Shown here piece by piece: positions 56,559 through 59,549 of a stretch of 64,000 nucleotides of DNA. Position 1 is the first letter of the stretch. Each line of letters starts with the position of its first letter. Both the position numbers and the translations under genes were made by a program. The DNA is from Nitrospira sp. (GTDB lineage: Bacteria; Nitrospirota; Nitrospiria; Nitrospirales; Nitrospiraceae): the NCBI GenBank assembly GCA_005116955.1, contig SWDI01000006.1:31845-95844 (forward strand). The letters are read 5' to 3'. The notes below the pieces were generated by a model that saw only the letters and a list, made by a program, of their open reading frames with translations, ran no database searches and was not told the DNA's origin.

Positions 56559-56879
56559 CTAGGCTGAGAGGCAATCGCTCATGAATTGCTTCCGCTCGTC
56601 GCCCTTCAACTTCTTGTCGCCCGCTTCTTTATTGCACGTCTTCATCTTATTCTGCTGAGAGCCCTTCCCGCCTCCACTTTTCTCCGACTTGGCGGAGAGA
56701 CAGTCCTTCATAAACTCCTTCCGCTCGTCTCCCTTTCCTTCGCCAAACCCCTTCGCGTTTGCCTGCTCGTTACAGACCTTCATCTTGTTCTGTTGTTGAG
56801 GTGCGGCGACGGCGAATGGAGTCGCTCCAAGGCTAACCATGAACAAGGCAACCGTGATCACACGTAGCGCTGTCGACAT
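56559..56879 (-). CDS. PsiF repeat protein
   Basis: Exported protein of 106 residues with two PsiF repeats: (N)KMKVCNEQANAKGFGEGKGDERKEFMKDCLSA and NKMKTCNKEAGDKKLKGDERKQFMSDCLSA, each with a conserved Cys pair. A signal peptide ends at about AVAA. In E. coli psiF is induced by phosphate starvation, but its role is unknown. The Shine-Dalgarno GGAGA is well placed. It is divergent from the PEP mutase gene; no Pho box was recognised between them. Confidence 0.88.
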   Translation of the reverse strand: MSTALRVITVALFMVSLGATPFAVAAPQQQNKMKVCNEQANAKGFGEGKGDERKEFMKDCLSAKSEKSGGGKGSQQNKMKTCNKEAGDKKLKGDERKQFMSDCLSA

Positions 56880-57164: not shown

Positions 57165-58799
57165 ATGAGCTCAATCCCAGGCATTACACCATCGAGCCAA
57201 TTTAGGAAGCTCCTCTTATCGGAGCAGCTGGAATTCATCTGCGAAGCTCATAACGGCCTGAGTGCAAAGATCGTTCAGGAAGCCGGCTTTAAAGGTATTT
57301 GGGCCAGCGGCCTTTCCATCTCAGCCCAATTTGGAGTTCGTGACAACAACGAGGCCAGCTGGACTCAAGTCCTGGATAATCTGGAATTCATGTCCGACGC
57401 GGTTACGATTCCCATTCTCCTCGATGGCGATACGGGATATGGCAACTTCAACAACATGCAGCGGCTCGTACGCAAACTGGAGCAGCGACGTATCGCCGCG
57501 GTTTGCATCGAAGACAAGCTCTTTCCCAAGACAAACAGTTTCATTAAGGGCGATGCTCAACCGATGGCGGACATGCAAGAGTTCTGCGGCAAGATCAAGG
57601 CAGGCAAAGACGCTCAGACTGATTCGGACTTTTGCATTATCGCGAGAGTGGAAGCCTTCATCTGTGGTTGGGGGTTGGCGGAAGCCCTTCGCCGAGCCGA
57701 GGCCTATCGTCAGGCAGGCGCAGACGGCATCCTCATTCATAGTGCCTTGTCGGTGCCGGATGAGATTCTTGCGTTCAAGCAGGAATGGAGCAATCGATGT
57801 CCTGTCGTGATTGTACCCACCAAATATTACGCCACGCCCACCGACGTGTTTCGGCAACATGGGTTCTCATTGGTTATTTGGGCCAATCATATGCTCCGAA
57901 CCGCCGTGGCCGCCATGCAGAAAACCGCGCGGACCTTGAAGGAACAGCAACATCTGCTCTCCATTGAAGACAAAGTTGCGCCGGTTTCAGAAATCTTCAG
58001 GCTGCAAAATGCCGCAGAGTTACAAGATGCCGAAGACCGCTATCTTCCTCGAGGCGCGGAAAATACCAGCGCCATCGTGTTGGCGGCTTCCCGTGGGGAG
58101 GAGCTTCGTGAGCTGACAGAGCACCAACCCAAGACGATGGTGAAAATACAGGGGACACCGATCCTTGCCCGCATCGTGGACGCCTATAACGCCGTGGGGA
58201 TCAAGGACATCACGGTCGTCCGTGGCTATAAGAAGGAGGCGGTGACGCTGCCCAACCTGACCTATTTAGATAACGATGACTTTGCCGAAACCGGTGAGTT
58301 GGATTCGCTCGACAAAGCAGTGCGTGTCCGGAAAGGGTTGGCTAAGGATCTGATCATTTCGTATGGCGACGTGCTGTTCAATAAGTACATTCCTCAGGCC
58401 CTTTGTCAGGAAAAAGAGGACTTTGTCGTCTTTGTGGACAGCGATTGGCAGAACCAGAGCAGCTATGCCCGTCTGGGTGGATTCGCCGAATGCACGCTGC
58501 CAAATTCAAGGAAAGCCTTCAATGCCAAGATCTATCTTAAACAATTAGGGAATCTGGCACCGCAAGAGAGCATTCATGGAGTCTGGATGGGGTTTCTCAA
58601 AGTGTCTCCCACCGGGGCCGTCCACCTTCAGGCGATCCTCGCTGAGATGGTAGCTAATCCAGCGAATCGCAAAGCCGGTATTCCCCTTCTATTGCAAGAA
58701 CTGTTGAAGCGGCAACTCTCTGTTCGTGTACTCTATACGGTCGGCCACTGGCTTGATATCAACAGTCTTGATGATGTGGTTCAGGCAGGCAGTTTTTGA
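57165..58799 (+). CDS. Phosphoenolpyruvate mutase fused to a nucleotidyltransferase
   Basis: A 544-residue fusion. Residues 1 to about 290 are PEP mutase (isocitrate lyase superfamily), which turns PEP into phosphonopyruvate, the entry to phosphonate synthesis; the signature [10 protein letters not shown] is at 116-125 and the metal site in [11 protein letters not shown]. Residues about 300-544 are a MobA-type nucleotidyltransferase; its glycine loop reads [25 protein letters not shown], so the usual GxGxR is altered. PepM-cytidylyltransferase fusions are known to activate 2-aminoethylphosphonate or similar head groups with CTP. The expected phosphonopyruvate decarboxylase and transaminase are not adjacent. 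The gene stands alone between psiF and truA. Confidence 0.9.
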
Positions 58800-58811: not shown

Positions 58812-59549
58812 TCACTCGTAATCCACCCGCACTAAAAATAGCCCCTGTGGGGGAGCTGTTTTGCCAGCTGCTGAACGATCTCGTGCATCGAGAATGTGCT
58901 TGAGTCTGTCCGGCGGGCGTTTGTGCAAGCCGACCTCCGCAAGGGTGCCGACTATCGAACGGATCATCTGTTTCAGGAAACGGTCGGCATAGGCTTCGAT
59001 TCGCAGCTGATCGCCTTCCCGGAACACCGTGAATTGTTGCAGATAACAGATGGGATCGTCGTTGTCGGTGGGTTGTGTCTGGAACGAAGAAAAATCGTGT
59101 GAGCCGATCAGCGCCAGCCCCGCGTGATTCATCGCCGCGTCGTCAAGAGGCTGATGGATATGCCAGCAGTAGGCACGCTCGACCGCCGGACGTTCCGGGC
59201 GATTCAGAATACGGTATTCATACAGTTTGCCCTTGGCCGAATGTCTTGCGTGGAAGGTGTCCGGCATGAGCATGACTGATCGCACCACGATGCTCTTTGG
59301 GAGATGAGCGTTCAGCGCCCTGGTCCATTCTCGAGGCGTCATGTCACGGTTGATATGGAAACTTGCCACCTGTCCCATCGCGTGCACTCCTGCATCGGTG
59401 CGTCCGGCTCCGATGACCGGTGTGTTGATTTGAGTGACGCCTGCAATGGCCGCTTCGACGGCTGCTTGAACCGTTGGCTGGTCGGGTTGACGTTGCCAAC
59501 CTGCGTAGGCTGTGCCGTCATATTCGAGAGTCAGTTTGACGATAGGCAT
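58812..59549 (-). CDS. truA: tRNA pseudouridine(38-40) synthase TruA
   Basis: TruA isomerises uridines 38-40 in the anticodon arm. LTLEYDGTAYAGWQRQPDQPTVQ, GAGRTDAGVHAMGQVASF (catalytic Asp), YEYRILNRPERPA and FLKQMIRSIVGTLAEVG are typical. Length is 245 residues. It lies downstream of the amidase gene on the same strand (30 bases apart), and ends convergent with the PEP mutase gene. Confidence 0.96.
   Translation of the reverse strand: MPIVKLTLEYDGTAYAGWQRQPDQPTVQAAVEAAIAGVTQINTPVIGAGRTDAGVHAMGQVASFHINRDMTPREWTRALNAHLPKSIVVRSVMLMPDTFHARHSAKGKLYEYRILNRPERPAVERAYCWHIHQPLDDAAMNHAGLALIGSHDFSSFQTQPTDNDDPICYLQQFTVFREGDQLRIEAYADRFLKQMIRSIVGTLAEVGLHKRPPDRLKHILDARDRSAAGKTAPPQGLFLVRVDYE

Follow-up and report, generated by a model that had tools for sequence, protein, structure and literature searches.

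A probably horizontally acquired PEP mutase fusion is predicted to act in trans with an aminoethylphosphonate gene cluster in Nitrospira

Results

A PEP mutase–nucleotidyltransferase fusion lies between psiF and truA

The window, by which we mean the whole 64,000-nucleotide stretch of DNA analysed, corresponds to contig C6:31845-95844 of a Nitrospira genome of 3.65 Mb (G000; 99.8% complete). One of its genes (Table 1) encodes a 544-aa protein in which, as a preliminary description of this DNA had proposed, a PEP mutase signature and a nucleotidyltransferase (NTase) share a single ORF: profile searches matched residues 13-283 to PEP_mutase (TIGR02320) at 392.3 bits (cut-off 319.6) and residues 303-426 to NTP_transf_3 (PF12804). 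The truA gene lies 13 bp downstream of the fusion ORF. Directly upstream sits a PsiF-repeat gene, a family whose name refers to phosphate starvation; it is there also when the PEP mutase (PepM) gene is absent. Fused homologues in the genus are either close (type A, 81-100% identity to the query) or distant (type B, 35-41%).

Table 1 Features of the fusion gene and its borders, in window coordinates.
Feature	Position	Strand	Basis
Type A PepM-NTase fusion, 544 aa	57165..58799	+	Uninterrupted ORF; TIGR02320 above cut-off; PF13714 and PF12804
PEP mutase domain, ~residues 1-295	57165..58049	+	Aligns to Mytilus PepM 1m1b residues 7-294, 428 bits
PepM signature, residues 116-125	57510..57539	+	EDK.....NS type; Asn124 at Mytilus N122
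Fused NTase-fold domain, residues 300-544, predicted non-catalytic	58062..58796	+	PF12804, 41 bits; LicC 1jyk best PDB match; median dN/dS 0.077
Altered G loop, residues 306-323	58080..58133	+	S-R-G-x-E conservation; alignment with Tde-PntC and LicC
C-terminal metal-site motif GHWLDIN; stand-alone PntC has W(T)EID there	58743..58763	+	
PsiF-repeat gene, left border of insertion site	56559..56879	-	PF07769; psiF and truA adjoin without PepM in type B genomes
truA, right border of insertion site	58812..59549	-	PF01416; synteny

The nearest solved structure to the fusion is that of Mytilus PepM, and the fusion conserves the equivalents of all of its W44, D58, D85, D87, E114, K120, N122, S123, R159 and H190. 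An AlphaFold model of the fusion, built on a shallow alignment, was of poor quality (mean pLDDT 64) and served only for a Foldseek comparison, which ranked PepM structures first. The EDK.....NS signature recurred in 81 of 84 aligned matches, the remaining three being stand-alone NTase loci. The altered glycine loop remarked upon earlier (LAASRGEEL) was likewise recovered, with S-R-G-x-E present in 81/81 Nitrospirota homologues; the loop is therefore a subfamily feature, and lid signature and altered loop together are conserved rather than due to chance.

Family scores, the Asn lid motif and the catalytic residues support a predicted identity of the type A protein as a PEP mutase rather than an isocitrate lyase, its TIGR02320 score exceeding the cut-off and both the EDKxxxxxNS lid and the Mg/catalytic residues being in place. 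An isocitrate or methylisocitrate lyase-type enzyme, the counter-possibility raised in the preliminary description, shares the superfamily; it is nonetheless extremely improbable here, since the prpB profile reached 140 bits (cut-off 354) against 392 for TIGR02320, the lid residue is Asn instead of Cys, and 1m1b aligned at 428 bits versus ~80 for methylisocitrate lyases. We rejected the lyase identity on the profile scores and lid motif. As for phosphonopyruvate hydrolase (TIGR02321), the protein scored 222 bits against a cut-off of 374 and carries Asn, not Thr, at N122, to which the mutase-hydrolase distinction is usually ascribed, a role that PMC7916636 itself doubts.

The genome carries an aminoethylphosphonate gene cluster on another contig

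Neither ppd nor genes for a 2-aminoethylphosphonate (AEP) transaminase or a CDP-alcohol phosphotransferase lie beside the fusion gene within the window. The label 'orphan' given to it previously thus fits the window, with no decarboxylase or transaminase adjoining, but not the genome, which encodes both at G000:C5:145.1-150.7 kb. The genome-wide search that had been proposed for ppd, the transaminase and CDP-alcohol phosphotransferases found all three on contig C5, and a truly orphan pathway was rejected by this search of the window's own genome. The suggestion of a different phosphonate route loses its footing, as decarboxylase and transaminase are both encoded elsewhere in the same genome.

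The Ppd search returned a two-piece match on C5 (region L089) within six genes on one strand, encoding PpdA, PpdB, AEP transaminase (AEPT), a PntC-like NTase, a CDP-alcohol phosphotransferase and an HpnL-like membrane protein (LPG_synthase_TM). PpdA (182 aa) and PpdB (193 aa) jointly span TIGR03297; neither subunit alone reaches the curated cut-off, and PpdB scores slightly higher as a sulfopyruvate decarboxylase beta subunit than as Ppd. We read the pair as a phosphonopyruvate decarboxylase because in type B genomes it is flanked by PepM and the AEP transaminase, and because the search of the window's genome gave no other Ppd-scale match. AEPT matched TIGR03301 at 340 bits, just under the cut-off of 361. 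Judged by domains, gene order and context, the genome holds both the Ppd and the AEP transaminase of an AEP pathway. The stand-alone NTase (239 aa) has PntC (6pd1) as its best PDB match, and the CDP-alcohol phosphotransferase (478 aa) has a C-terminal domain related to AF2299. By eye, the N-terminal half of the latter (L089:8178-9611) resembles a degenerate NTase, in an AF2299/IPCT-DIPPS-like architecture; the pathway may hold three NTase folds, with PntC alone looking intact.

Across the genus, AEPT was found at ≥78% identity in 76 of 79 genomes, the three exceptions being incomplete, and the six-gene order was identical wherever contigs were long enough. Read from these genes, the AEP pathway appears near-universal in Nitrospira. 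One genome also contains a second, broken copy of AEPT, PntC, CDP-alcohol phosphotransferase and HpnL, ~16 kb from its intact cluster (L201; G055:C1:1215000-1232000).

Two PepM types alternate between genomes

Type A was present in 45 and type B in 29 of the 79 genus genomes, and none carried both; the chance of zero overlap at these numbers is 8e-17, a value not corrected for phylogeny. Absence of both types from the remaining five is explained by gaps at the locus: truA too is missing from four of them (G013, G059, G021 and G025), and the fifth, G019, is 54% complete. At phylum level, 93 of 295 sampled genomes, from 18 genera, had a fused PepM, exactly one each.

Type B adjoins the six-gene cluster and is divergently transcribed from it. 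Its lid motif is not EDKxxPKxNS: the sequence is EDNVYPKRCS in 28 of 29 cases and EDNIYPKRCS in one, and type B together with its relatives in other genera follows EDN(V/I)(Y/F)PKRCS. The protein keeps W44, D58, D85, D87, E114, K120, S123, R159 and H190, with the changes K116N and N122C, and scores 266-269 bits against the TIGR02320 cut-off of 319.6. Its place in the cluster and its alternation with type A lead us to infer that type B, too, is a PEP mutase.

A single-chain Ppd gene directly follows the fusion gene in 29 of 80 homologous loci. At L012:11693-12889 and similar loci, this second Ppd comes after a type A PepM while the split PpdA/PpdB is still in the cluster. One type A genome additionally encodes a 460-aa fusion that looks Fom1-type (L162:2622-4004; G031:C5, ~55.6-57.0 kb), with an N-terminal HxGH-type cytidylyltransferase-like part and a C-terminal PEP mutase bearing EDKKGLKRNS; a methyltransferase-like gene adjoins.

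Type A appears to have displaced an in-cluster type B gene

In the window's own genome, a type B remnant persists at C5:152011-152525; it matches first residues 11-164 (48% identity, several stops) and then residues 529-559 (87%). The DNA to either side of the remnant aligns collinearly with that of the type B genome G066, and ~1.12 kb is missing inside the gene. Such remnants occur in 5-6 close genomes. The psiF-truA interval, empty in type B genomes, holds the gene in type A genomes of the window's larger group, with or without a single-chain Ppd behind it. On a tree of four cluster proteins, type A is polyphyletic (≥6 changes); a single type A clade was rejected (AU p 0.010, quick tree), and the type A PepM tree places G028, G061, G040 and G024 differently from the cluster tree. 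These trees were computed with FastTree or as quick IQ-TREE runs. The pseudogene still in place and the polyphyly of type A therefore suggest that the type A gene took over from the PepM encoded at the cluster.

These patterns are best read as repeated transfer of type A, which replaced type B and on at least one occasion came paired with Ppd; the extra single-chain Ppd was presumably lost from the present genome since PpdA/PpdB remain. Differential loss from an ancestor that held both types, with one kept per genome and no recent transfer, would fit the conserved type A site in the closer group. It is nevertheless quite unlikely, in that both types were retained in 0/79 genus and 0/93 phylum genomes, the type A PepM and cluster trees conflict for the four genomes named above, and no type A remnant was found at psiF-truA in the 12 type B genomes examined.

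A further alternative is a truly separate pathway, in which type A would make a phosphonate other than that of the C5 cluster. The gene is indeed unlinked from the cluster, and many relatives have their own Ppd next to type A. Against this stand the strict alternation with the cluster PepM, the type B pseudogene beside an intact cluster, which leaves type A as the only PepM, and the lack of genes for later phosphonate steps next to type A within the window, so that we regard a separate pathway as highly unlikely.

The fused NTase domain lacks the catalytic arginine

The loop consensus is GXG(T/S)RX4-8PK, and the Arg15Ala, Lys25Ala and Lys153Ala variants of Tde-PntC each have <10% activity left (PMC6697681). 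We aligned this loop across LicC, Tde-PntC, stand-alone PntCs and fused domains. The C5 stand-alone enzyme, closest to Tde-PntC, has GxGxR, PK and EID, with Lys at the T/S position; in 72 of 72 genus genomes the stand-alone PntC carried both GxG(K/R)R and WTEID. In the fused domain of the window's protein, GxG(T/S)R...PK is replaced by SRGEE...PK: it has Ser309 for Gly, Glu312 for T/S and Glu313 for the catalytic Arg, with Lys323 kept. Where PntC has Arg, the loops read SRGxE in type A, GFEKQ in type B and SRG(K/R/E)G in Burkholderiaceae, with a deletion in Roseomonas; the catalytic Arg of GxGxR is missing from every fused NTase domain examined in these four groups. Further Nitrospirota fusions carry SKGAD, SHGKE or GFE(K/E)(E/Q/P/H). 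The sample outside Nitrospirota is small and confined to plasmid or chromid records; 15 records cover ≥80% of the query, and six of them were compared (B. cenocepacia, B. arboris, B. multivorans, Mycetohabitans, Cupriavidus and Roseomonas). The EID metal site is likewise altered, being DIN in type A and DIN or GVN in several fused domains.

What the fused NTase does keep is the catalytic Lys and the YGD Asp, Lys323 and Asp402 being invariant in a 31-sequence alignment. Purifying selection acts on the domain (median dN/dS 0.077, compared with 0.030 for the PepM part), and this value together with the invariant motif led us to reject its decay. All checked genus genomes with the cluster also encode a separate, intact PntC-like enzyme. 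In the rest of the family, outside the genus, PntC was present in 34 of 34 genomes with a fused PepM versus 1 of 5 without (p 6e-5).

Since the Arg is lost in fused domains, an intact PntC is encoded separately and purifying selection is strong, the fused domain is probably a retained non-catalytic domain, that is, a pseudo-nucleotidyltransferase rather than the AEP activator. The idea that the fused NTase carries out the activating step is accordingly not supported: the domain has no catalytic Arg, and a PntC-like enzyme that looks intact is encoded separately. With Lys kept and Asp invariant, binding without turnover is plausible, and the domain may bind an effector, dock to PntC or take part in assembly. 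Some residual or altered activity is possible, too, since the catalytic Lys and YGD Asp are kept. An NTase that is active with altered residues, on AEP or on another phosphonate such as phosphonopyruvate, would make the protein bifunctional like Fom1; the invariance of Lys323 and Asp402, the purifying selection and the frequency of PF12804 fusions, taken in PMC6697681 to support nucleotidyl activation, speak for it. We consider it doubtful all the same, as the PPi-binding Arg has become Glu, Gln or other residues, or its loop is deleted, in every lineage examined, several have DIN or GVN in place of the C-terminal EID, and an intact PntC is always alongside.

Discussion

Taken together, the type A protein is likely the genome's only PEP mutase fusion, working in trans with the C5 AEP cluster, horizontally transferred and equipped with a non-catalytic NTase domain. 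Type A would have arrived by horizontal transfer at the psiF-truA site, displacing the ancestral in-cluster type B that is now a pseudogene. In the proposed pathway, the type A fusion would convert PEP to phosphonopyruvate, PpdA/PpdB would turn this into phosphonoacetaldehyde, AEPT would form 2-aminoethylphosphonate, the stand-alone PntC would activate it to CMP-AEP, and the CDP-alcohol phosphotransferase would place AEP on a lipid alcohol; the HpnL-like membrane protein possibly moves or exposes the AEP-lipid. The NTase-fold domain of the fusion would be conserved in a structural or regulatory, non-catalytic capacity and not as an AEP cytidylyltransferase. Families, gene content, alternation, displacement and motif loss were computed; we infer the order of the reactions, the flux, what the product is and that the fused domain does not catalyse, drawing for every step beyond gene content on known families. 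The preliminary description's proposal that a nucleotide-activated phosphonate may decorate a lipid or glycan is thereby supported: with both PntC and a CDP-alcohol phosphotransferase encoded in the genome, such a compound is the likely product.

Alongside diacylglycerol, a hopanoid is a lead as the acceptor of AEP, given the HpnL-like protein and similar clusters that adjoin hopanoid genes elsewhere. In Mycetohabitans and Roseomonas (L091, L092), genes for PepM-NTase, Ppd, AEPT, a PntC-like enzyme, a CDP-alcohol phosphatidyltransferase and an LPG-synthase-domain protein lie beside hopanoid genes (ispH, hpnH, hpnA; shc, hpnC-E), where an AEP-hopanoid is possible; the Roseomonas phosphonate-hopanoid linkage has already been noted (PMC8776678). 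Nitrospira has HpnH, though away from the AEP cluster.

The fusion itself and AEP tailoring are already known. Three points are new as far as the searched open-access literature goes: PepM in Nitrospira appears to have been relocated and repeatedly replaced, a pseudogene staying behind; type B is a class with a divergent motif; and fused NTases have systematically lost the catalytic Arg. In that literature we found no paper on AEP synthesis in Nitrospira or on a pseudo-NTase in PepM. Tentatively, the fused NTase could be a conserved pseudo-nucleotidyltransferase serving, for instance, as CTP/CMP-AEP sensor or PepM-PntC docking module, with EDN-x-x-PKRCS, bearing Cys at the lid Asn, marking a second PEP mutase class and the two classes being swapped between lineages as functional equivalents. 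Surveys filtered on EDKxxxxxNS would discard the EDN-x-x-PKRCS class, so some C-P bond formers may be missed. Fused NTase domains on PEP mutases have been taken as a sign that nucleotidyl activation is the prevailing route in bacterial phosphonate biosynthesis (PMC6697681); in the lineages examined, the fused copy lacks the very residue without which PntC loses most of its activity, and an intact separate enzyme is always present. A near-universal pathway in Nitrospira, which are major nitrite oxidisers, predicts AEP-containing membrane lipids, and some of the aminophosphonates in soils and waters might then originate biologically from this genus.

Among known systems, the PEP mutase of Mytilus edulis (1m1b/1pym) resembles the fusion across the whole barrel (428 bits) and shares all catalytic residues; unlike the Nitrospira protein, this mollusc PDB chain has no NTase domain. 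The PepM-NTase architecture is found in about a third of PEP mutases (PMC6697681). Of the PepM-PF12804 aepX-type fusions (Rice et al. 2019, PMC6697681), close examples from Burkholderia, Mycetohabitans, Cupriavidus and Roseomonas have the identical domain order, at 50-55% identity over the full length, and are accompanied, as in Nitrospira, by AEP pathway genes and a separate phosphocholine-cytidylyltransferase-like gene. The Nitrospira gene differs from them in being unlinked from its pathway, in having replaced an older in-cluster paralogue and in carrying Glu for the catalytic Arg. PntC of Treponema denticola (6pd1) and LicC (1jyk) are matched by the C5 stand-alone NTase with GxGxR, PK and EID intact, whereas the fused domain, at ~35 bits to LicC, lacks the Arg and the EID Asp. 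Fom1 of fosfomycin biosynthesis (PMC6697681) likewise joins a cytidylyltransferase and PepM in a single chain, but its CyTase is an N-terminal PF01467 domain of shown activity, whereas the Nitrospira fusion carries a C-terminal PF12804 domain.
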